From a virus: a stretch of 36,708 nucleotides of DNA. The DNA lies in the IMG/VR virus record IMGVR_UViG_3300020162_003413, positions 1-36,708 of that record; one strand, given 5' to 3'. The position numbers and the translations under genes are program-made. Positions 740 through 32,540 of the stretch are shown here, one piece after another (within the stretch, counting starts at the first letter, position 1; every line of letters starts with the position of its first letter). The notes beneath the pieces are model-generated. The model was not told the origin of the DNA and made no database searches. It was given only the letters and a program-made list of their open reading frames with translations.

Positions 740-2583
740 TCGCCGCGCTCTCCCTCACCGGGTTCGCCGGCATTGAGCAGGCCGTGGTGGAGCTCGACCC
801 CACTGGCCACACCACCATCACCGGCCACAGCCAGGCCGGGAAGTCCACCCTCATCGAGGCGGCCTGCTACGCGCTCTGGGAGACCGGGACCGACGGCAAG
901 TCGCTCGACACCTCGGCGGTGCGGGACGGCGCCGAGGAGCTCGAGGTGGGCCTCCGCACCGCGAAGGGCGCCACCATCTGGCGCCGCATGCGCAGCCGCG
1001 GCGGCCACACCCGGTCGCTGCAGGCCTCGGACGCCGTCGAGCCGGCCCCCGTCCAGACCGCCGACCAGATGGCCGCGAAGCTCGGCGCCGTCGGACTGCA
1101 GGCGGACATCGGGCGGCTCATCCTCGCGCCGCTGGGCTGGGTGCCGCTCCTGCATGCCGAGCTGGGCCGCCCGCTGCGCGACCTGCTCTCGCAGCTGATG
1201 CCCGCCGGCGAGCTCCGCACGGTGGTGGAAGAGATGATGGAGGCCGCGGGGCAGCCCATGCTGCCGACCGACCCGCACACCACCGACGCCGCGCTGAAGC
1301 TCCAGACCCAGCGCAACGACGAGAAGAACCGGGCAGCCGGTCGGCTTCAGGCGATGCAGTCCGCGGCCGCCCAGGCGGAGACCGCCGGCCCGACGAACGA
1401 GGAGATCGAGAACGCCCAGAGCTTCATCACCATCGAGGAGCAGTGGGCAGCGTTCGACCGGACGACCGCGGCCGCTGCCGATGCGGTGGCGCGGTTCGAT
1501 GCCGCCAAGCGTGCGCGCGCCGAAGCGATGCGGGCCCTCGATGCGTGGCAGCAGCGCAAGGGGGCGCTCCCCGCGGCTCCCGCGCCGGACCTGAACCAGC
1601 AGACCGCCGTGCAGGAGATGCGCGCGGCCCGCGTGGAGCTGGAGCAGGCGCGCACGATGGCCGCCGACACGGAGCGGCTCGCGGTCCAGTCGCAGGCCAA
1701 GCTCGCGAGCGCCGAGGCTGCGCACCAGGCGCTGGCCGATGCGGGCGACGGCTGCCCCACCTGTCAGCGGGACGGCTGGGTCGGCGCGAAGGCCAAGCTG
1801 GAGTCGTCGGAGGCGGCGCTGAAGCTCCAGCGCGGCTCGGTCAACGCGATGGTGGACCGCGCGATGGGCGCCGAGGCTGCCCTGCAGGCGGCCCAGAAGC
1901 GCGCCGAGAAGGCCGAGGCGGCCGCGGCTGGCTTCCAGGACATGGAGCAGGCGAACGCGGCGTACCGTGCTGCCGTCGCGGCGCTGGGCCCCGAGCCCAC
2001 CGTGCCCGCCGAGCCCAAGGCGCCCGCCAAGCTCCCGGCGTCGCCGGACTTCGAGCGGCCGACCTCGGAGGAGTATCGCCACGCCCGCAGCGTGCTCGAT
2101 GCGGCGGCCGCGGCGCGCGGTGCGGCCGACCGGCAGGCCCGGGTGGCGGCCGAGCTCCAGCAGGCCGAGCAGGCGCTGGAGGCTGCGACGGCGGAGGCTG
2201 CCCGCGTGGTGGTGCTGGTGGACGCGAGCCGCCGGGCGCCCTCGGAGCTCGCCCGCAAGCAGGCCGACGTGTTCGGCGACACCGGCCCGGCCTCGCTGCG
2301 CTTCCCCCCGAAGGAGAACCGCAACACGCGCGAGATGGAGGTGCTCGTCGACGGCCGCCCGTGGCGGCGGGCGAGCCGCGGACGGCTCATCTACGCCGAC
2401 GCGGTCCTGCGGTGCGCCATCCGTCGCGCGGCCGCGGCGAAGTTCGGGCCGGCGTTCGGTCGCCTGCCCATCTTCGTCGACGACGTGCAATCGTGGACGG
2501 GCGAGTGGGACGGCATCGAGGCGCCCGCGGTGTACCTGGTGACGCAGGCCGACGTGGAGCTCAGCAGCTCGGTGGGTGCGTGA
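736..2583 (+). CDS. SbcC/Rad50-like SMC-type ATPase with zinc hook
   Basis: The protein has 615 residues. The N-terminus carries a Walker A motif (GHSQAGKST, residues 30-38). It is followed by long Ala/Glu/Arg-rich coiled-coil arms (about 190-330 and 345-500) meeting at a CPTC zinc-hook motif (Cys340, Cys343). A C-terminal ATPase lobe has a Walker B-like LPIFVDD (about 577-583). This is the SbcC/Rad50 layout, shorter than bacterial SbcC (about 1,000 residues). Such proteins dimerise at the hook, hold DNA ends and drive a nuclease partner. No Mre11/SbcD gene is nearby; instead the stop codon overlaps the start of a DnaQ-family exonuclease by 1 bp. The role is probably DNA-end processing or recombination. 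The SMC-like fold is secure; the partner is an inference. Confidence 0.88.
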   Translation: MIAALSLTGFAGIEQAVVELDPTGHTTITGHSQAGKSTLIEAACYALWETGTDGKSLDTSAVRDGAEELEVGLRTAKGATIWRRMRSRGGHTRSLQASDAVEPAPVQTADQMAAKLGAVGLQADIGRLILAPLGWVPLLHAELGRPLRDLLSQLMPAGELRTVVEEMMEAAGQPMLPTDPHTTDAALKLQTQRNDEKNRAAGRLQAMQSAAAQAETAGPTNEEIENAQSFITIEEQWAAFDRTTAAAADAVARFDAAKRARAEAMRALDAWQQRKGALPAAPAPDLNQQTAVQEMRAARVELEQARTMAADTERLAVQSQAKLASAEAAHQALADAGDGCPTCQRDGWVGAKAKLESSEAALKLQRGSVNAMVDRAMGAEAALQAAQKRAEKAEAAAAGFQDMEQANAAYRAAVAALGPEPTVPAEPKAPAKLPASPDFERPTSEEYRHARSVLDAAAAARGAADRQARVAAELQQAEQALEAATAEAARVVVLVDASRRAPSELARKQADVFGDTGPASLRFPPKENRNTREMEVLVDGRPWRRASRGRLIYADAVLRCAIRRAAAAKFGPAFGRLPIFVDDVQSWTGEWDGIEAPAVYLVTQADVELSSSVGA

Positions 2584-3206
2584 TGGACCTGTTCCGCGGC
2601 CAGCGCGTCTGCGTCCTCGACACCGAGACCACCGGCTTCGCGGGCCAGTCGTGGTCCCACGTCATCGAGCTGGGCGCGGTCATCCTCGACCCCGACGGCA
2701 GCGAGGTCGACAGCTTCGGCCATCTCGTGATTCCGCCCGTGCTGGACGAGCGGGCCGAGCCGGCGCTGGCGATCAACCACATCACCGCCGAGGAGCTGCG
2801 GCGCTTCGGCCATGTCCCCTCCTACGTGACCGGCGAGTTCTTCGACTGGCTATGGCAGCACCAGTGCAAGTTCGTAGCCGCCTACAACCGGCAGTTCGAC
2901 GAGGCGATGCTCCGGAAGATGGACGGATGGTCGGAGGTCGACGTCCGCTGGCTGAACTGCATCATGCTGGCCTCGATGGACGTAATGGCCGCGGCCGGCG
3001 CTGCCGAGCGGTTCAGCAAGCACGGGCGCGCGAAGTGGCCGAAGCTCTCGGCGTCGGCGGAGTTCTTCGGCGTCGAGGTGACCGGCCCCGCTCACCGCGC
3101 CGTCACCGACGCGCGCACGGCGGCCGGCGTGATGGTGGCGGTCGCCCGTCGCCGGCGGGCCGCTGAGGCCGCCGCGGACGCCGAACTGGCTCAGGCGACA
3201 GCATGA
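2583..3206 (+). CDS. DnaQ-like DEDDh 3'-5' exonuclease
   Basis: The protein has 207 residues. ExoI is seen at VLDTETTGF (Asp13, Glu15), ExoII at YNRQFDEAM (Asp106), and ExoIII at HRAVTDA (His171, Asp176). This is the full DEDDh catalytic set of the DnaQ/RNase T/DNA polymerase III epsilon superfamily, which removes nucleotides from 3' ends using two metal ions. The length fits a free-standing exonuclease domain. The ATG overlaps the stop of the SbcC-like ATPase gene by 1 bp, so the two products are made together and may act as a complex. No DNA polymerase gene is present, so a proofreading role for a phage polymerase is unlikely. The C-terminus is an Ala/Arg-rich helix. The TGA stop overlaps the next ATG (ATGA). 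Confidence 0.9.
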   Translation: MDLFRGQRVCVLDTETTGFAGQSWSHVIELGAVILDPDGSEVDSFGHLVIPPVLDERAEPALAINHITAEELRRFGHVPSYVTGEFFDWLWQHQCKFVAAYNRQFDEAMLRKMDGWSEVDVRWLNCIMLASMDVMAAAGAAERFSKHGRAKWPKLSASAEFFGVEVTGPAHRAVTDARTAAGVMVAVARRRRAAEAAADAELAQATA

Positions 3207-4820: not shown

Positions 4821-5079
4821 CCGCCCCATGACCCCCGCCGACGCTCAGCGCCTGCTCGATGCTGTGCGGGAGGCCGAGTACGTGGCGCGGCACGACCGCG
4901 GCAGGTACAACAACGGCAACCGCGGCAACAGCGAGCAGCGCCGAGAGGATGCGCGCCGGGCGCTCACCTTCCGGGCGAAGGAGCTCACGCTCGGGCTGGT
5001 CGCCGCTGGCGAGGAGATCGCCCGACTCCGCAAAGAACTGCGGCGGGCGACGGCAGGCAGCGAGGTGTCCGATGGGTGA
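4813..5079 (+). CDS. Small charged helical protein, unknown function
   Basis: The product has 88 residues and is mostly charged helix, with an Asn/Gly-rich patch (RGRYNNGNRGNSEQRRED) in the middle. The first ATG (4813) follows GGGTGG, and a second in-frame ATG at 4828 is possible. The C-terminal helix (AAGEEIARLRKELRRA) could form a coiled coil. The end overlaps the next gene's ATG at 5072 by 8 bp. No family is recognised. It belongs to a run of small accessory genes between the recombination genes and the integrase. Confidence 0.65.
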   Translation: MDSRPMTPADAQRLLDAVREAEYVARHDRGRYNNGNRGNSEQRREDARRALTFRAKELTLGLVAAGEEIARLRKELRRATAGSEVSDG

Positions 5080-5281
5080 GCTCATCGAGCTGGAGCGCCG
5101 CCGAGTGCAGGAGGACGCGCGGGCCGAGGCGCCGCCGGGGTGGACTGTCGAGCGCGCCGGGGGCGGGTGGCGTGCCTCGCGCCGCTACATCGCGGGCGCC
5201 ATCTCCGGCGCCACGGTGTGGGCCAGAACCGCCGAAGAAGCATGCCAGGCTGCGCGGCGGTTTGAGGGGGCGCGGGAATGA
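5072..5281 (+). CDS. Small unknown protein
   Basis: The product has 69 residues beginning MGELIELERRRVQED. An acidic/basic helix comes first, followed by a Gly/Arg-rich middle (ERAGGGWRASRRYIAGAISG) and a helical end with a cysteine. The start lies in the last codons of the previous gene. The TGA stop overlaps the ATG at 5278 (ATGA), giving coupled translation into the excisionase-like gene. Function unknown. Confidence 0.65.
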   Translation: MGELIELERRRVQEDARAEAPPGWTVERAGGGWRASRRYIAGAISGATVWARTAEEACQAARRFEGARE

Positions 5282-5664
5282 CGCCCTGGCTCTCCACCGA
5301 CGCCGTCGCCGCGCACCTCGGCATCCCCTCGCGCACCCTGCTCGACATGGCGGACCGTGCGCCCGCCCAGCTTCCGGCCCCGCGCATCGGCGTCGGCACC
5401 GGCGTGCGGCGCATGACCTACCGATGGAAGCCGCTGCCCGTGGTAGAGCGGTGGCTGGAGGAGCTCACGCGATGGCGAGCATCGATCACCCCCGAGGACG
5501 TCCCCGCGTCCGGTGGAAGGACCCCGACGGCACGCCCCACAGCCGCACCTGCGCGACGGAGACCGCCGCGCGCCAGCTCCTCCGCGCCGTGCAGCTCTGC
5601 GAGGACACCGGCCGAATCTGGCAGCCTGAAAGCCGAGCTGCAACGCCTTCGCTCCGGGGGATAG
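5278..5664 (+). CDS. Excisionase-like HTH protein with read-through tail
   Basis: Residues 1-65 form a compact HTH protein (WLSTDAVAAHLGIPSRTLLDMA, then TYRWKPLPVVERWLEELTR) of the size and type of phage excisionase / MerR-like HTH_17 proteins. These bind DNA beside attP and steer the integrase toward excision. At codon 66 the junction with the integrase ATG reads ATGG instead of ATGA, so the expected TGA stop is TGG. The frame then continues for 63 more codons of Arg/Pro/Ala/Ser text that mirrors the integrase gene in another frame. The natural product is probably 65 residues, or was until recently. Its position directly before the integrase supports an excision or regulatory role. Confidence 0.6.
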   Translation: MTPWLSTDAVAAHLGIPSRTLLDMADRAPAQLPAPRIGVGTGVRRMTYRWKPLPVVERWLEELTRWRASITPEDVPASGGRTPTARPTAAPARRRPPRASSSAPCSSARTPAESGSLKAELQRLRSGG

Positions 5665-6587
5665 CGCTCAAGTGGATGGCGGCCATCGACCGCCGCCTCT
5701 CCCGCCGGACCGTCGACACCCGGCAGCAGCAGGTTGACCCGTTCCTCGACTGGTACGAGGAGCGCGAGGGCGTCGGCGCTGGCCCGGAGCACCTGTCGCG
5801 CGCGCTCATCGAGGCCTACTGGGATCACGTGCGGACACCGGCGACCGGCCGATACATCCACCGCCGCACCGAGACCACGGCCCGCAAGCACATCGAGACC
5901 TTGCACCTGTTCTGGGAGTGGGCCTTCGACCGCGAGGAGTACGAGGGGATCGTGCCCCGCTGCCGCAAGATGGAGCTCCCCCGGAAGCCAGCCACACGCC
6001 CGAGGCCGGCGCCGAGCTGGGCGGAGATGGACATGGCGATCAGTGCCGCGACCGGGTGGCGACGATGCCTCCTCGTGGTGATGCGGTGCACCGGGCTCCG
6101 CGTCCAGCAGGCGATGGGGCTGCGCTGGGCGGACGTCGAGGGCGCCCGTCTCACCATCGACGGCGAGCTCGGCAAGTCGGCGCAGGAGTCGCGCGGGCGT
6201 GTGGTGCCCATCGCCCCATCGCTGCTCGCGGAGTGGGCGCAGCCATCGATCGCCGAGTGGACGGACGACGCATGGATCGTCCCCTGCCCGCACGACCACC
6301 GGCTGGTCCGGTCGCGTGACGTGGCGCTCATCTGGACGCGCACCGAAGCCCGGCGCGCGGCATGGGAGGGCCGGCCCGATCACTGCTTCAGGGCCGGCTA
6401 CCAGACGGGCCTGCGTGCGCTCGGCGTGAAGCGCGAGGCCACCGAGTACCTCGTCGGTCACGCCCTGCCCGGCCTCGATGCGTCCTACATCGACCCAGAG
6501 CAGGCGCTCCACCTCACCGCGGCCGTGTCGCTGGTCCCGGCGTTCGCGGTGGCCGAGGCCGTACCGTCGCAACTGCGGCGCGCCTGA
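5472..6587 (+). CDS. int: Tyrosine-recombinase integrase
   Basis: The product has 371 residues. The catalytic set of the phage integrase family is visible: Arg210 (CTGLRVQQAMGLRW), a probable Lys235 (GELGKSAQ), His304-x-x-Arg307 (HCFRAG), His330 (LVGHALPG) and nucleophile Tyr339 (ASYIDP). Residues about 60-170 form the helical SAM-like core-binding domain. The N-terminus (RGRPRVRWKDPDGTPHSRT) looks like the short strand-rich arm-binding domain. The enzyme joins phage attP to a host attB through a 3'-phosphotyrosine intermediate. The start at 5472 is inside the excisionase-like frame. This is the last gene of the rightward operon, and the GTACCG-rich region follows at once. It shows the phage is temperate. 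Confidence 0.93.
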   Translation: MASIDHPRGRPRVRWKDPDGTPHSRTCATETAARQLLRAVQLCEDTGRIWQPESRAATPSLRGIALKWMAAIDRRLSRRTVDTRQQQVDPFLDWYEEREGVGAGPEHLSRALIEAYWDHVRTPATGRYIHRRTETTARKHIETLHLFWEWAFDREEYEGIVPRCRKMELPRKPATRPRPAPSWAEMDMAISAATGWRRCLLVVMRCTGLRVQQAMGLRWADVEGARLTIDGELGKSAQESRGRVVPIAPSLLAEWAQPSIAEWTDDAWIVPCPHDHRLVRSRDVALIWTRTEARRAAWEGRPDHCFRAGYQTGLRALGVKREATEYLVGHALPGLDASYIDPEQALHLTAAVSLVPAFAVAEAVPSQLRRA

Positions 6588-20678: not shown

Positions 20679-21593
20679 TCAGGCCGTGGTGGTCCAGAGC
20701 AAGCCGCCTTCCTGGGCCTTGTTCACGCCCATGAACGCGGTCCCGCGGATGGTGGTCTCGGGCTTGGTGGAGCTCCGGAGACGCTCGATCATCAGGGGCC
20801 CGAAGGCGTACTGATCGGCGGTCTGGGGCAGGTTCCGAGCCATGACCTTGAGCATCGCGCCGCGGGCGAAGATGCTGTTCTGGTACTTGCCGCCGCTCGT
20901 CGCCACCTGGTAGGTGGCGATGATGTCCGTGTTGCGGATGCGGCCGAGGTACGAGCCGCCGAGGCTCTTGGCCAGCGCCTGCACGCCCGGGTCGTCCTTC
21001 GAGAGGTTCGACTGCTGCGCGAAGAGCGCGTCCTTGATGAGCGCGCGGCCCACGTTCGGGTGCACGATCGCGATCTTCGGGAGCGACGGATCGACGTAGA
21101 GGTCTTCCATCTCCCCGACCGCATCGAAGTAGTCCTCGAGGTCCGGGTCGCCCGCACCGGCGTCGAGCGTCGCGGTGAAGGTCGCACCCTCGGTCGCCAG
21201 AAGACCGGTCCAGGTGTACTGCAGCGACTTCACGAGGCCGGCCGCGAAGCGCTCCGCGCTGAACTGCTGGTTGGCCAGCGTGTTGAGCAGGTCGGAGACG
21301 TTCCACTGCATGTAGCGCTGCCCGATGGAGGCGCTGTACAGTTCGGTCCCGATTGCGGTGTTGGTCGTCATCGACCCACCCTCGGACACGCTGGTCATCG
21401 AGCGGGGGGTGGTGACGTCGTCCTCGCGCATCTTCGCGGTGTCGGAGAACGACCCGGTCAGGTCGTCCATATCGATGATCGCGGGGTGGTTGCCGATGAA
21501 GGTCGGGTCGGCGAGCGCGTCGAGGACCAGCGAGGAGATGATCGTGCGCTGGATGTCGCTCGCGAGGGAGCTCCAGACTGCTTCGTTTGCCAT
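20679..21593 (-). CDS. Major capsid protein
   Basis: The product has 304 residues, in the size range of HK97-fold capsid proteins without a long delta domain. The N-terminus is helical (WSSLASDIQRTIISSLVLDALA). The middle has the pattern of E-loop and spine helix (SAERFAAGLVKSLQYTWTGLL, then YFDAVGEMEDLYVDPSLPK and VHPNVGRALIKDALFAQ). The end has TTIRGTAFMGVNKA, like the A-domain strands of HK97 proteins. It follows a scaffold-like gene, and no protease gene is seen, so assembly likely uses a separate scaffold. The ATG follows GGTGA at a short spacing. A structured 147-bp leader precedes the gene and a strong hairpin follows it. Confidence 0.85.
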   Translation of the reverse strand: MANEAVWSSLASDIQRTIISSLVLDALADPTFIGNHPAIIDMDDLTGSFSDTAKMREDDVTTPRSMTSVSEGGSMTTNTAIGTELYSASIGQRYMQWNVSDLLNTLANQQFSAERFAAGLVKSLQYTWTGLLATEGATFTATLDAGAGDPDLEDYFDAVGEMEDLYVDPSLPKIAIVHPNVGRALIKDALFAQQSNLSKDDPGVQALAKSLGGSYLGRIRNTDIIATYQVATSGGKYQNSIFARGAMLKVMARNLPQTADQYAFGPLMIERLRSSTKPETTIRGTAFMGVNKAQEGGLLWTTTA

Positions 21594-26647: not shown

Positions 26648-27204
26648 GCTGCACCGAAGGAGCCGCGCATGCGGTCCGCGTTGGCGGCGATGGTGGCGAG
26701 CTGGGCATCGGCCCGAGCGCGAGCCGCGGCCCACTCGCCGAGGGGGCGACGCTGGTAGGGCTCGGGGTCAACGACCACGACCCGGTCGACCGTGTTCTCG
26801 CTCTGCTCCCAGCGCTGCTGCAGCGCGTCGTAGGCCATCTGCCCTGCGTGGCCGAGGCTCTGACCAAGGGCGCAGGTGCAGGCGCAGCTGAGCTCCTGGT
26901 GCGCGTGCCTGCCCTGTGCGTCGGTCGTGTGGCGCATGACCACGCGACGCCCCGAGCCCTTGCATCCGCCGCATCCTGTGCCGCCTGGCGCTGCCGTCTC
27001 ACCGAGCAGGTCTTCGAGCTCGCCGAGGGTGGGGCAGACGCGCTTGCGCCACTGCTTGGCCGCGGCCATGAGCGTGTCGTCGCTGGTGGCGTTGAGCCTC
27101 AGCACCCACGCCGAGGAGTACTTGTCGAGCGCTCGGCCAGCGTCGAAGCCGTTGCGGGCGGCCATCTCGCGGATGGCGTCGCTGACGCCGCGTACGGAGG
27201 CCAT
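26644..27204 (-). CDS. Zinc-binding protein of the replication module
   Basis: The product has 186 residues from the ATG at 27204; a GTG one codon earlier is also possible. A helical N-terminus (SDAIREMAARNGFDAGRALDKY) precedes a Cys-rich part: CGGCKGSGRR (about residue 78) and CACTC (about residue 107). This resembles half of a DnaJ-type zinc-ribbon pair (CxxCxGxG). The C-terminus is helical. It follows the helicase-loader-like gene by a 1-bp overlap (TGATG) and precedes the sigma-like gene (GTGA). It may be a DNA-binding accessory of replication; no specific family is recognised. Confidence 0.6.
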   Translation of the reverse strand: MASVRGVSDAIREMAARNGFDAGRALDKYSSAWVLRLNATSDDTLMAAAKQWRKRVCPTLGELEDLLGETAAPGGTGCGGCKGSGRRVVMRHTTDAQGRHAHQELSCACTCALGQSLGHAGQMAYDALQQRWEQSENTVDRVVVVDPEPYQRRPLGEWAAARARADAQLATIAANADRMRGSFGAA

Positions 27205-27743
27205 CACTGCACCTCGATGAGGCGGCGGGGGGCCTCGGCGAGGAGCAGGCGGGAGGTGCCCGCCTCGGCTGCGTAGGCCTTGCCGAACGCGCGGCGGGCG
27301 AACCCGTAGCCCTGCGGGTTGTGCACCGGGTCACCGGGGTCGAAGCTGGCCCAGCGACCGACCGCGGCGAGGCAGCGGTCGACGTCCTCGGGGTCGACGC
27401 CGTAGTGCACCAGGTGGTGGCGGGCCCGGGTGGGGTCGCTCCCGCAGCTCGAGCGGGCCTTCGCGACGGCTGCGAACAGCCGCTCGCCCTTGGCCTCGAG
27501 CTGCTTCGAGTCGGGGCGCTGGGCCGACTGCACGTCGGCGAGCAGCTCGCTGGGCGTGGGCCAGAACTTCGAGGCCCGCAGGTGGCGGGTGACGGCCTCC
27601 CGAAAGGCCCCGTCGTCGAGGTCGGGGCCGAGCAGCTCCATCCAGTCGGCGCAGAGCTCGACCATGCCCTCGGGCTCCGGCGGGTTCGCGGTGTTGCGGG
27701 CCAGCCGTTGCAGCTGAGCGAGGAGGACGTCAGGGGAGAGCAT
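27204..27743 (-). CDS. Helicase-loader-like replication protein
   Basis: The product has 179 residues. The N-terminal domain (DVLLAQLQRLARN...MVELCADWMELLGPDLDDGAFREAVTRHLRASKFWPTPSELL) follows the pattern of phage helicase loader/inhibitor proteins (G39P-like), including the typical aromatic-x-P-T-P-x-E-L block near residues 60-67. The remainder is helical and basic. CGGAG 8 bp upstream supports the ATG at 27743, which overlaps the initiator gene by 14 bp. Next to an initiator carrying iterons, this protein may load a host replicative helicase. The family match is from memory of the motif. Confidence 0.6.
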   Translation of the reverse strand: MLSPDVLLAQLQRLARNTANPPEPEGMVELCADWMELLGPDLDDGAFREAVTRHLRASKFWPTPSELLADVQSAQRPDSKQLEAKGERLFAAVAKARSSCGSDPTRARHHLVHYGVDPEDVDRCLAAVGRWASFDPGDPVHNPQGYGFARRAFGKAYAAEAGTSRLLLAEAPRRLIEVQ

Positions 27744-28566
27744 TGGTGGCTCCGAGGTTTTGGCGGGCGGTGGCGAGGGCGTCGAGCAGTCGCTTGCGGC
27801 GGTCGTTGGCGGGGCTGGCTCGGGTCGGTGGGCCTGTCGCGGCCACGGCGGGCTTCTCGGCGACCATGGGCACGCCGGCCTCGGCGAGCAGCTCGGCGAT
27901 CTGCCGCGCCCTCCTGGAGCCCATGCCGCGGCGGTACTGGAGCTCCTCCAGCGGCACGCGGCGCAGCTCGTCGAGGTCTCGGATGGCCGGGTCGGCGGGG
28001 TCGGTGGGCGCGAGCAGCAGCCGCAGCAGGTCGGGCCGGGTGCCCAGCGCCCGCACCAGGGCCGCGTTGGGCGACTCGGGGGGAGTCGATGCCGGAGCCG
28101 GGTCGGGGTCGCGCGTGTTCCCTCCCCCTTCGGGTGAGGGGTGATGGGTGATGGGTGAGGAGTAGAACGCGCGTGGCGGTTTGCTGGCGGCGGGCTGGCG
28201 GAACGCTGGCGGCGGGCTGGCGGTTTCTTGCTGATTGCCGGCGTTCGCGCTTGTCGCCGCTGGCGGCCGGCTGGCGGTTCGCTGGCGGTCCGCTGGCGGT
28301 TTGCTGGCGGAATTGTGCTGAACGAGTCCGTCGCGCCAGCTTTCCTCGTCGCGGAGCAGGCTCTTCACGGCCCAGTCGGTCCATCCCCAGTCCTCGGAGA
28401 GGGCGGGTCGGCCGGGGAAACGGATCGGGCGCCAGCCTTCGCGGGCAGTGGCCCGGTCGAGGTGCCATCGGAGATCCATGGCCGCGGCCTCCATCGGCCA
28501 GGGCTGCGGGATCGTGGCCCGGATGGTCTCCCACCACGAGGCCTGCATGGGCACGAAGCCGCTCAT
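27730..28566 (-). CDS. Replication initiator protein with origin inside its gene
   Basis: The product has 278 residues. Residues about 25-80 (DRATAREGWRPIRFPGRPALSEDWGWTDWAVKSLLRDEESW) form a winged-helix/HTH DNA-binding domain of the type found in phage replication proteins. Residues 85-165 are a Pro/Ala/Gln/Ser linker. The DNA encoding this linker carries nine 8-bp iterons at 11-bp spacing, as lambda O carries its origin. Residues 180-245 are helical and include LEELQYRRGMGSRRARQIAEL, like a helix-hairpin-helix or alpha-CTD element. The start overlaps the helicase stop (ATGA). It likely binds the iterons and recruits the helicase loader encoded next. Confidence 0.7.
   Translation of the reverse strand: MSGFVPMQASWWETIRATIPQPWPMEAAAMDLRWHLDRATAREGWRPIRFPGRPALSEDWGWTDWAVKSLLRDEESWRDGLVQHNSASKPPADRQRTASRPPAATSANAGNQQETASPPPAFRQPAASKPPRAFYSSPITHHPSPEGGGNTRDPDPAPASTPPESPNAALVRALGTRPDLLRLLLAPTDPADPAIRDLDELRRVPLEELQYRRGMGSRRARQIAELLAEAGVPMVAEKPAVAATGPPTRASPANDRRKRLLDALATARQNLGATNALP
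28133..28160 (+). repeat. Four tandem 7-bp units beside the iterons
   Basis: GGTGAGG, GGTGATG, GGTGATG, GGTGAGG lie head to tail within the initiator gene. The 7-bp period breaks the codon frame, so selection is likely on the DNA. They lie 22 bp before the first perfect iteron and may be part of the same origin. Confidence 0.6.
28183..28310 (+). repeat. Iteron array, putative replication origin
   Basis: Nine exact copies of GCTGGCGG start at 28183, 28194, 28205, 28216, 28259, 28270, 28281, 28292 and 28303. Spacing is exactly 11 bp within a group of four and a group of five. The 35 bp between the groups include a T-rich stretch (TTTCTTGCTGATT). Eleven bp is close to one helix turn and not a multiple of three, so this is a DNA feature rather than a protein repeat. 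Confidence 0.8.
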
Positions 28567-30419
28567 GCCGCCCCCCTGCGCTTCCAGCCGCCCTTGCGGA
28601 GCTGCTCGGCCACCCGGAACTTCCCGGGCTCCTCGCGCTCACGGATGCGGCGGGTGATGCGCGCGGCGTCGATGAGCATGGCGGCCTCACCGCGCGACAT
28701 GCCGACGGTCGAGCGTGTGACGCCGAGGCTCTGCAGCATGCGCTGGTGCATCGACGTGGCGAGCTCGGCGAGCGTCGGGTGATCCGGGGGGAGCACCTCG
28801 ACGCCGAGCGCCCGCACGTGGCTGTCTGCCCACGACAGCGCCACCTCGAGCTCGCGGCAGCGATGGCGCTCCACGAGGATGGAGGTCACCCCGTCGAGCT
28901 CCCAGACGACGTAGCCGCTGGCGCCAGGGCGAACGGCCACGACCTTGCGGGCGCCGCCGGTGCCGAGCACCTCGCCGCCGACACAGTGAGCGCCGGAGTA
29001 CTCGAAGAAGCCGATCCGGTCGCGCTTGCGGACGCCGGGCAGGAGGCACACCTCGTACAGCCGACCGGTGACCGACGCGAGCTTCATCGGCACGGGCTTC
29101 TCGGCCTTGTCGGGCGCGACGAAGGCCAGCTCGGGCCACGGGTGGGTGAGCTCCTCGCCGTCCTTGTGCACCGGGCCCGGCGGCCACTCGACAGTGGCGT
29201 AGCTCACGGTGCCGATCTGAACGGCCGCCACGACTCCGACACCCCAGTCGTCGTGATGGCGACGGCGGACCCGGTCGCCCTCGTGCAGCGCACGCTCGCC
29301 CTGGGCGTCCTCGGTGCTGCCGATCCCGAGGTTGGCCTCGACGGTCAGCACGAGGTCGCAGCCGTTGTCGACGAAGTCCACGAAGTTGCAGTGCGTCTTC
29401 CCGGGGTGCCGACGAAGGCCGCGGCCGACGGTCTGCACAAACACGATGATGGAGCGCGTGGGGCGCGCCTTGAGCACCTGCACGGTGGCCGGGGCGTCGA
29501 AGCCCTCGAAGAGCAGGTCCTTGCTGGTGAGCACCTGGATGCGGCCGGCCTGATAGTCGGCGACCACGCGGTCCCGGTCGTGCCGGGGCATCTCGCCCCA
29601 CGCCGCGGCGGCCTTGATGCCGCGATCCATGAAGGCCGCGGCGAGGTCCTGCGCGTGCAGCACCGACACGCCGAACACCAGCGCCTGCCCGCCGCCAAGC
29701 TCAAGGTACTTCTCGACCACGAGCTTGTTGCGCTCCTTGTCGTTGACGACCTTCGAGAGCTCGACCTGGTCGTAGTCGGCCCCCGACATCGGGACCTGCG
29801 AGAGGTTGATCTGCGTGTCGACCCGATGGGCCTTGAGCGGCACGAGCACGCCGTCTTCGATGGCGCGGGCGATGGGGTACTCGTAGACGATGGCCTCGAA
29901 GACCGAGCCGAGCCCAAGGGTGGTGCCGTTCTCGCCCGCTCGGTAGGGCGTGGCGGTGAGCCCGACGACGCGGCAGTCGGGGTTCACCGCACGGGCGGCC
30001 TCGATGACGATGCCGTAGCTGGGGGCAGTCGCGTGGTGGGCCTCGTCGATGATGACGACGGTGCGGCGGCCGATGCGAGCGAGCCGCGACACCGAGCAGC
30101 TCTGCACGCTCGCCACGACGATCGGGCAGTCCCATCCGTCGAGGTCGGCCTTCACGATGCCGACACGGGGCGCGCCGGGCACCTTCGCGATGCGCCGGGC
30201 AAGGTCCTGGATGAGCTCGTCGCGGTGGACGAGCACGACGACCTGCCCGTTGTGGAGGGCGGCCAGCACCGCGAGGCCTGCGAGCAGCGAGCCCTTCCCG
30301 GAACCCGTGGCGGCCGCGGCGAGCAGCGAGCGATAGCGCTGGAGGCCGGCGCGGATGGCGTCGAGGCACTCGATCTGCCAGCGCAGCGGGCTCTGCCCCT
30401 CGGGCAGCGGGAGACTCAT
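28563..30419 (-). CDS. SF2 DEAH-box helicase
   Basis: The product has 618 residues. The superfamily 2 helicase motifs are clear: Walker A ATGSGKG (37-43), DEAH (125-128), TAT (155-157), and QTVGRGLRR (about 325-333, motif VI). After the helicase core, HEGDRVRRRHHDDWGVGVV (about residue 375) resembles a KOW/Tudor-like module of the type seen at the C-terminus of UvrD/PcrA and in CarD. The last 200 residues are unassigned, with a helical basic end. It may unwind or remodel DNA in phage replication or recombination. It overlaps the RusA-like gene (TGATG) and the initiator gene (ATGA). Confidence 0.88.
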   Translation of the reverse strand: MSLPLPEGQSPLRWQIECLDAIRAGLQRYRSLLAAAATGSGKGSLLAGLAVLAALHNGQVVVLVHRDELIQDLARRIAKVPGAPRVGIVKADLDGWDCPIVVASVQSCSVSRLARIGRRTVVIIDEAHHATAPSYGIVIEAARAVNPDCRVVGLTATPYRAGENGTTLGLGSVFEAIVYEYPIARAIEDGVLVPLKAHRVDTQINLSQVPMSGADYDQVELSKVVNDKERNKLVVEKYLELGGGQALVFGVSVLHAQDLAAAFMDRGIKAAAAWGEMPRHDRDRVVADYQAGRIQVLTSKDLLFEGFDAPATVQVLKARPTRSIIVFVQTVGRGLRRHPGKTHCNFVDFVDNGCDLVLTVEANLGIGSTEDAQGERALHEGDRVRRRHHDDWGVGVVAAVQIGTVSYATVEWPPGPVHKDGEELTHPWPELAFVAPDKAEKPVPMKLASVTGRLYEVCLLPGVRKRDRIGFFEYSGAHCVGGEVLGTGGARKVVAVRPGASGYVVWELDGVTSILVERHRCRELEVALSWADSHVRALGVEVLPPDHPTLAELATSMHQRMLQSLGVTRSTVGMSRGEAAMLIDAARITRRIREREEPGKFRVAEQLRKGGWKRRGAA

Positions 30420-30928
30420 CAGAGCACCGGAGCGAGGGACTCGGGCGCAGGCGCGCGAGTCGGCTCGAAGACGAAGGCACGATCAGGCCGGTCGACGACG
30501 TCGTCGAGGGCGGCGATCACCAGCTCCACGTGCGGGCGCTCGCCCACCGCGGCGTACACCTGCTCCTCGCGGGAGCGGGCGACGCGGCAGTCGTCCTTCC
30601 AGACGCCCGACTGGTTCACGCCGTCCCACGTGGCCTTGATCACGTTGTCGAGGTCGACGCCCGAGCTCGAGAACGTGCGGCGACCAGTGGCCCACGCATC
30701 TGGCGACACGAACGAGGGCCGACGGATCGGCCGCGGCCAGACCGCAGTGATGCGGGTCTCGACCAGGCCGTCGAACTGCTGAAGCCCGCCGGCGGCGCTG
30801 CGGACCGCGGCGGCCACGTGCGACTGGTAGCTGCGGGTGCGGCCGGGGGTGCGGTGCTCCTTGTCCCGGTGGCGCTCCTTGCCCACGGGCAGGCCGTCGA
30901 TGTACACGAGGATGGTGGCGGTGTTCAC
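30419..30928 (-). CDS. rusA: RusA-like Holliday junction resolvase
   Basis: The product has 169 residues from the GTG at 30928 (GTGA with the previous stop). The RusA signature is clear: VDLDNVIKATWDGVN (Asp92, Asp94, Lys98) followed by WKDDCRV (Asp112, Asp113), the acidic residues that bind metal. RusA enzymes are dimers that cut four-way DNA junctions and are common in lambdoid phages. The N-terminus (ILVYIDGLPVGKERHR) matches the family's first strand. The C-terminus extends about 25 residues beyond the usual domain. The gene lies between those for an RdgC-like protein and a helicase, a coherent recombination set. Confidence 0.85.
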   Translation of the reverse strand: MNTATILVYIDGLPVGKERHRDKEHRTPGRTRSYQSHVAAAVRSAAGGLQQFDGLVETRITAVWPRPIRRPSFVSPDAWATGRRTFSSSGVDLDNVIKATWDGVNQSGVWKDDCRVARSREEQVYAAVGERPHVELVIAALDDVVDRPDRAFVFEPTRAPAPESLAPVL

Positions 30929-32085
30929 TGCGATCCCCCGACGGCCGCCGCGAGGTCCTCGCTGGCCTGCATGGCGAGGATCGTGCGGATGCTGCCGAGG
31001 TGCTGGGCGTAGCGGTCGGACCCGCGAAGGTTGCCGAACTTCGCCAGCAGGTCGAGCCAAGCCTCATAGGCGCTCTGCCGATCGAACACCTCGCCGAGGA
31101 GGATGTCCTCGACGGTGCCGGCCTTGCGCTTCAAGCCGCAGTGGATGCCGGTGAGGGCCAGCTGCTCCTCGCGGACCTCGATCTTCAAGGTCGCCACGGT
31201 CAGGTCGTTGACGAACAGGGCGAGCGAGCAGCCGCCCACCTGGTTGCCCTGCAGGAGCGCGAGCCGGGCCAGCGGGTCGCGGGCGGCGTCGTCCTGATGG
31301 AGCACTGCGCGCTTCTGGCCCGTCGACAGATGGAGGGTGAGTCCTCCTTCGAGGGCCCACGCCCAGTCGTTCTCCTGCGACCGGAACGAGGGCAGGGCCT
31401 CGGCGGAGTGCTGGTAGCCCCACCACGCCCAGGTCAGCGCCTGATGCGCCACGCCGCGCTCCATCTCGCGCGGGCGGGTCCCCTCCCCGTCCTCGGACTC
31501 GTCCGTGCTGACGGTGCCGGTGAGGCCCCGCTCTGCCTGCGGGTCGCGCGCCACCACCTGATCGGCGAGGCTCGGACGGGCGATTGTGATGCCGTCGCGG
31601 CGAAGCACCTTGGCGATGCCGTCGAGCACGGCCGGCTTGTGGGAGCCGACCAGCACCTGGTTCGACCAGAGGTCGAAGGCGACCAGCACGCCCTCGGTGG
31701 TCGGCGGGGTACGGCGACGGAGCTCGAACTCGGCTTCCTCGCGGACCTCGTCGACCTCGGCCTTGCTGAGCTTGCCGCCGGCTTCCATCTCGCGCATGGC
31801 GCAGAGCTGGGCTGTCAGGGTGTGGACGGCGGTCTTCGGGACCTTCTTCGTGTCCACCCGCCAGCAGACGGCCACGATGTTGCCTGCGACGCAGGCCTCG
31901 TGAGACATGGCGGCGGTGACGTCGAGCGGCGCGGCCCAGCCAGCGCTCGCGAGCTGGTCGGACATGACCGGCCGGAAGGCGGTGGTGGCGAGGGCCTCGA
32001 GCAGGACTACCGCCGTCCAGTCGCCCTGCAGCGTCCAGACGGTGAGGCCGTGCCAGTCGGCGCGGAGGGTGGTCGGCGACTTCAC
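30925..32085 (-). CDS. RdgC-like recombination-associated protein
   Basis: The product has 386 residues from the GTG at 32085 (GTGA with the previous stop). The early block FRPVMSDQLASAGWAAPLD, then the charged segment TKKVPKTAVHTLTAQLCAMRE and KAEVDEVREEAEFELRRRTPP, and FDLWSNQVLVGSHKPAVLDGI line up in order with RdgC. RdgC is a ring-shaped DNA-binding protein of beta- and gammaproteobacteria that limits RecA loading. Length fits (RdgC about 300) with an added C-terminal region. In a phage it may restrain host RecA or protect replicating DNA. The family call is from memory of the motif order. Confidence 0.7.
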   Translation of the reverse strand: MKSPTTLRADWHGLTVWTLQGDWTAVVLLEALATTAFRPVMSDQLASAGWAAPLDVTAAMSHEACVAGNIVAVCWRVDTKKVPKTAVHTLTAQLCAMREMEAGGKLSKAEVDEVREEAEFELRRRTPPTTEGVLVAFDLWSNQVLVGSHKPAVLDGIAKVLRRDGITIARPSLADQVVARDPQAERGLTGTVSTDESEDGEGTRPREMERGVAHQALTWAWWGYQHSAEALPSFRSQENDWAWALEGGLTLHLSTGQKRAVLHQDDAARDPLARLALLQGNQVGGCSLALFVNDLTVATLKIEVREEQLALTGIHCGLKRKAGTVEDILLGEVFDRQSAYEAWLDLLAKFGNLRGSDRYAQHLGSIRTILAMQASEDLAAAVGGSQ

Positions 32086-32540
32086 GCGGACCGCCGGCGG
32101 TTGGTGACGGCCTGCAGGGCCCGGCGCAGCTGGGCTTCGGCCTGAGCTGCCTGCATCTCGAGCCCTTCGACTTCCTCTTCGGTCAGCTGCCCATCGGTGA
32201 GGGCCTCCTCGAGGGAGGCGGAGAACCCGGCCATGGTGGCCGTCGCGCGGACGCTGGCCGACCGGGCGGTCGTCAGGAGCACCGCAGCAGCGGGGGCCTC
32301 GTGGCGGGCCATGAGCGGGGCGTACACGGCGGCGGCGCCGAAGCGGGAGGCCAGCCGGTCCAGCTCGGCGAGGCCGACTTCGCGGGAGCCGGAGCGCCAG
32401 CGACACACGAGGCTGGCGTCAACGCCGGCGACGTCCGCGAGCTCGCGGTCGGTGGGCATGCGGCGGCTGGCGGCCATCTCGGCGGCTTTGCAGGCGTCGA
32501 GGATGCGGCCCTGCAGGTCGGACAGATGGGCTTTCGTCAT
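32082..32540 (-). CDS. HTH regulator at the head of the leftward operon
   Basis: The product has 152 residues. Residues about 28-60 (PTDRELADVAGVDASLVCRWRSGSREVGLAELDRLASRFG) are a Cro/CII-type helix-turn-helix. The rest is helical and acidic with a basic end (TNRRRSA). It is the first gene of the long leftward operon and faces away from the small membrane protein gene at 32756. It could act like lambda CII or Cro to control the operon or the lysis decision. The ATG at 32540 has only a weak ribosome site. Confidence 0.7.
   Translation of the reverse strand: MTKAHLSDLQGRILDACKAAEMAASRRMPTDRELADVAGVDASLVCRWRSGSREVGLAELDRLASRFGAAAVYAPLMARHEAPAAAVLLTTARSASVRATATMAGFSASLEEALTDGQLTEEEVEGLEMQAAQAEAQLRRALQAVTNRRRSA

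Follow-up and report, generated by a model that had tools for sequence, protein, structure and literature searches.

Why does a phage gene carry, deep within its coding sequence, nine copies of the same short unit at intervals of 11 bp, and what does this array do? The gene lies in an IMG/VR virus record of 36,708 bp and 71% GC, which was analysed at its full length and is called the window below. The exact unit, GCTGGCGG, is repeated in steps of 11, 11, 11, 43, 11, 11, 11 and 11 bp, forming groups of four and five, as an earlier note on this DNA had described; both the coordinates and the shuffles from which we derived chance levels bear this out, the window containing 21 copies in all as compared to 7.1 expected, a count that 0 of 100 shuffles reached. 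The highest 50-bp self-similarity in the window (lags 5 to 59) was likewise found at lag 11, at position 28257. A degenerate tenth unit, CGTGGCGG, stands in register at 28172-28179, so that the array comprises two clusters of five units each:

28259 to 28310, minus strand: iteron cluster 1, five units reading CCGCCAGC on the gene strand (28303, 28292, 28281, 28270 and 28259)
28224 to 28258, no strand assigned: inter-cluster spacer of 35 bp, the clusters being offset by 43 bp from start to start
28172 to 28223, minus strand: iteron cluster 2, exact units at 28216, 28205, 28194 and 28183, followed by the degenerate fifth

GC skew showed no turn at the array. The array is located in the linker-coding part of a minus-strand gene, between the regions encoding the N- and C-terminal domains, and the gene is surrounded by others with the following matches:

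27730 to 28566, minus strand: putative replication initiator of 278 amino acids, with a predicted helix-turn-helix N-terminal domain (residues ~1-80), a linker (~83-160) and a C-terminal domain (~166-230)
28563 to 30419, minus strand: SF2 DEAD/ResIII helicase gene, upstream of the initiator gene (PF04851, 3e-18; phrog_16, 1.5e-72)
30419 to 31060, minus strand: RusA-like Holliday junction resolvase gene, upstream of the initiator gene
30925 to 32406: RdgC-like gene, upstream of the initiator gene
27204 to 27743, minus strand: possible helicase-loader-like gene, downstream (phrog_2289 'helicase loader', E 0.026; phrog_9804, E 0.041)

The stop codon of the helicase gene overlaps the ATG of the initiator gene, whose own end overlaps the downstream gene. 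The product of the latter is weakly indicated to be a helicase-loader-like protein; a gene at the equivalent position in relative L032 matched phrog_9804 at 4e-11, and the two products matched each other weakly in blastp (E 0.008). In L027 and L032, too, a RusA gene lies upstream of that for the initiator; among the relatives there are also ERF annealing proteins, the SF2 helicase of L033 and, in two records, DnaB. Elsewhere in the window, a DnaQ-like exonuclease (2580-3203; E 7e-11) and a tyrosine integrase-like gene (5076-6584), whose E of 8e-6 falls just short of the curated cut-off, together suggest a temperate phage. A further gene (20679-21593) was taken from its position to encode the major capsid protein; tblastn matched it to none of 50,697 phage records, and no Pfam family was convincing.

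We next consider the protein itself. Its AlphaFold model contains a confident, all-helical N-terminal domain (residues 10-80, pLDDT mostly near 90, no beta strand), in which helices 53-60 and 64-72 are arranged like a helix-turn-helix, followed by a disordered linker and a C-terminal helical domain modelled at low confidence. The N-terminal helix-turn-helix proposed in the earlier note is thus supported by the predicted structure, though Foldseek searches of the full-length model (against the PDB and viral folds) and of the N-domain model (against the PDB) returned nothing significant, the best of the non-significant PDB matches being mostly helix-turn-helix proteins. A PDB sequence search with the N-domain profile gave a single spurious receptor match and nothing else. 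The window protein matched no Pfam family at E ≤ 1, hence no rolling-circle nuclease or Rep family, and no replication family in the Pfam and phrog searches. Its linker is of low complexity, rich in P, A and S, and its C-terminal domain, which differs from the C-termini of most relatives, is helix-hairpin-helix-like by a weak match (HHH_2, E 0.23). The C-terminal halves of three relatives did match replication proteins, namely 'replication initiation O-like' in L030 (3e-4) and 'replication initiation protein' in L023 (1.5e-4) and L027 (1.6e-3). The C-terminus of L035 (2073-2369), which resembled DnaA_N by eye, was set aside, having received no HMM or PDB sequence support.

Where the last unit ends, a short motif leads into a tract of different composition:

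28168 to 28175, minus strand: boundary motif CACGCGCG, which closes the last unit and recurs in most relatives
28132 to 28167, minus strand: candidate DNA unwinding element of 36 nt, with no G on the gene strand and with TCACCCA heptamers

By computed stability, no other 36-mer between 27.5 and 29.5 kb is as unstable as this tract. The 35-bp separation of the two groups given in the earlier note stands, and the least stable element is not this spacer but lies on the other side of cluster 2. The boundary motif takes the form CACGGGCG in L030 and L062, a variant occurs also in L031 and L024, and it is absent from L033; in most lineages it is followed by an A/C-rich unstable tract, often built of heptamers. 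Across the genes, lags 7 and 14 are prominent in this tract (combined z of 6.3 each), every gene is poor in G there, and in 12 of 13 lineages the tract ranks within the 4% of windows with the lowest stability in its gene, the exception being L047 (13.5%). A DNA-only search by the boundary pattern yielded 13 matches: six known members, six chance matches, none with an 11-bp array, and one new lineage, L047, which carries both the array and the N-domain. We also noted a second CACGCGCG beyond the heptamer tract, at 28110-28117 of the window (minus strand); the motif thus brackets the candidate unwinding element in the window and its 95% relatives.

Profile searches with the N-domain over 2.9 million viral contigs recovered three nearly identical records (95%) along with 12 more lineages, to which DNA-pattern scans added L047 and L062, giving 15 lineages with the window included; the relatives' contigs are uncultured and some are incomplete. 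The N-domains of the 14 other lineages are 31-48% identical to that of the window. A tblastn search of 50,697 deposited phage records found no member of the window's phage group, and 84,980 genomes of bacteria and archaea, scanned twice with narrow peptide patterns, yielded no relative. Lag 11 was the best of lags 5-30 in 16 of 16 genes tested (14 lineages), and its observed level was reached by 0 to 5 of 500 synonymous-codon shuffles per gene; the fifteenth lineage, L062, stood outside this test and was checked by eye, showing 11-bp repeats and a cluster offset of 43 bp. The offset is 43 bp in the window, L025, L026, L031, L033 and L047 as well, 44 bp in L027, L032 and L034, and 54 bp (L035) or 55 bp (L023, L030) in three others, that is, 43 or 44 plus 11, which fits the loss of one unit. 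L024 contains several extra blocks, and in L028/L029 the second cluster has a different core. A relative that kept the linker and lost the repeat would have spoken against the earlier note; we found none, the 11-bp phasing of the linker being retained in every relative of the N-domain recovered.

The units themselves differ. Consensus units among the lineages include CCGCCAGC, CCTCCAGC, TCTCCAGC, CGTCCAGC, CCTACCAC, CCTCCCAA and CCAACCG, and the sole position common to all 14 consensus units compared is C5. Over eight positions, units differ by 0.76 mismatches on average within a phage and by 2.86 between phages, and this is the pattern expected of sites that co-evolve with their own binding protein; the array sites may accordingly be read as tracking the protein of their own lineage. 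Suggestive in this regard are L033 and L034, two cases in which GTCCAGC-type units coincide with a change from W to R in the putative recognition helix, WGW.DW becoming WGW.DR. In the sequences compared, then, the layout is conserved across about 15 uncultured phage lineages while the unit sequence diverges.

We weighed three other explanations of these repeats. The simplest, a neutral tandem expansion or a feature of the linker at the protein level, draws on the P/A/S-rich, low-complexity linker and on the fact that GC-rich genomes generate low-complexity tracts. Yet the gene-strand unit falls in every codon frame (giving PPA, RQ and AS), and so the array cannot stem from protein repetition, a conclusion which the earlier note had already drawn and which the synonymous shuffles reinforce. 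The fixed cluster offset, the spacing conserved in 15 lineages despite diverging sequence, and a scan of 390 ORFs of at least 200 amino acids, in which lag 11 was best at 0.66 or above almost solely at initiator arrays, likewise argue against expansion, and we regard it as the least credible of the three. Alternatively, the array could be mainly an autoregulatory operator, through which the protein represses its operon, with no role as an origin. Initiators commonly autoregulate, and short 11-bp CTCCCAA arrays occur in apparently non-coding DNA of other phages; however, ten phased sites deep in coding sequence, beside conserved unstable heptamers, exceed what an operator needs, and no promoter has been demonstrated at the array, which makes this explanation improbable.

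Third, the array could serve in partition, as a centromere of the kind of parC on plasmid R1, in which a DNA-binding adaptor covers direct repeats of 10-11 bp and connects them with a segregation motor. R1 parC contains ten direct repeats, which lie in two regions around the promoter (PMC5016525 and the Dam and Gerdes title that it cites); R1 ParR needs two or more 11-bp repeats, and the sites of another ParR are 8-bp repeats with 3 bp between them (PMC9426499). The geometry is indeed alike, with about ten phased repeats of 10-11 bp in two groups. Set against this, the window protein is predicted to be helix-turn-helix rather than ribbon-helix-helix, the array lies inside a gene rather than ahead of a par operon and adjoins an unwinding-type element, the relatives' C-termini resemble replication initiators, and a search for ParA-type ATPases (PF13614), in which the control worked, found none in the window or in 11 relatives. 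A ParM search (PF06406) gave no match anywhere, its control included. A centromere seems to us as improbable as a mere operator.

We conclude instead that the segment 28132-28310 is, with high probability, a phage replication origin that lies inside its own initiator gene, in the part coding for the linker, as judged from sequence and its conservation. The anatomy observed consists of two five-unit clusters (asymmetric units of ~8 bp in 11-bp steps), a spacer, CACGCGCG and a G-free heptamer tract. On this anatomy, the helix-turn-helix domains of initiator monomers would dock onto the units head-to-tail, with one monomer for each helical turn, so that the ten sites would come to lie on nearly one face of the DNA. 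The complex wrapped over these sites would then strain and open the adjoining heptamer tract, and the C-terminal domain, variable among lineages, would recruit the replicative helicase or its loader. Far more tentatively, and with real doubt on our part, the array may represent a class of phage origin of its own. In such origins a ParR-like helical filament of initiator monomers would cover both five-site clusters in 11-bp phase; the scaffold geometry would be conserved, the site sequences specific to each lineage and the C-terminal recruitment domains interchangeable. This geometry may also have arisen, or been captured, with unrelated N-domains (Riemerella phage GRAP2). The literature covered was the open PubMed Central set, and 11-bp phage iterons may have been mentioned earlier.

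An origin of this kind would make origin and initiator predictable as a pair in a group of uncultured phages, and its layout would provide a sequence rule for locating origins inside phage genes. Since the geometry is fixed while the sites diverge, the set amounts to a natural experiment on the co-evolution of initiator domains and their sites, and, given the head-to-tail packing at 11 bp, the structure of an initiator filament can be tested directly.

Repeats with a step of 11 bp were also seen outside this family. Arrays of GCTGGCGG in L012, L013 and L015 were rejected, their steps being an irregular 7/11 bp and the records L012 and L015 lacking an initiator homologue. CTCCCAA occurs three times at 11-bp steps, apparently outside genes, in two groups of records (L052, L054, L055, L057 and L059; L056, L060 and L063); these arrays are unrelated to the initiator and are possible operator or excisionase-type sites. 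In L051 (12831-12870), a C1-type repressor gene carries four CTCCCAATCGT repeats at 11-bp steps in its linker.

Among known systems, the proteins of gut phage MT835900.1 and Riemerella phage GRAP2, which we take to be DUF6291-like, share 11-bp ACC-core linker repeats with the window protein's gene, but their N-terminal domain is unrelated; the GRAP2 repeats are followed by 6-bp AT-rich repeats. Within this DUF6291-like group lag 11 is clear in MT835900.1 and GRAP2, marginal in NrS-3 and not found in PJN03 and PJA1. ACC-core 11-bp linker repeats joined to an unrelated DUF6291-like N-domain were observed in L065 (2090-2900, clear), L066 (1501-2214, clear) and L067 (1504-2436, marginal), the last two with GTAAAT-type 6-bp repeats after them. 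RepB of pMV158 is a rolling-circle nickase, whereas the window protein matched no nuclease family. Iteron plasmids of the P1, RK2 and pSC101 type carry helix-phased direct repeats, bound by monomers, beside an A+T-rich opening region (PMC5043065). Their direct repeats are phased with the helix as in the window, although the window protein lacks a Rep-family match. To our knowledge, the iterons of such plasmids lie outside the initiator gene.

In lambda, the origin lies in the middle of the initiator gene, with tandem sites by an easily opened tract and replication genes downstream (PMC7466680, PMC5043065), and the iterons are inverted repeats of 18-19 bp (PMC5043065), as also annotated in the lambda record. 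The analogy to lambda O drawn in the earlier note holds for the mid-gene position and the adjacent unstable element (by computed stability here), and so does the difference it saw in the units: oriλ has four inverted-repeat iterons of 18-19 bp, bound by O dimers at steps of ~20-24 bp, and the window ten asymmetric direct repeats of ~8 bp at 11-bp steps, a geometry to which R1 parC is nearer. The best lags in the lambda O gene are 23, 24 and 20, lag 11 being at background, and 11-bp phasing was discarded as a general feature of O-like initiators, since lambda, Javan374, Javan290, FCL-2 and Ab9 do not show it. Lambda O and the window protein have no detectable N-domain homology, O-like matches being weak and confined to the C-terminal halves of relatives. 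The shared position and opening tract, together with the different iterons, argue for an origin that works like oriλ and an initiator that is not a member of the lambda O family, and the best reading of the array is that of an intragenic iteron origin of oriλ-like working, probably built on 11-bp head-to-tail direct repeats.
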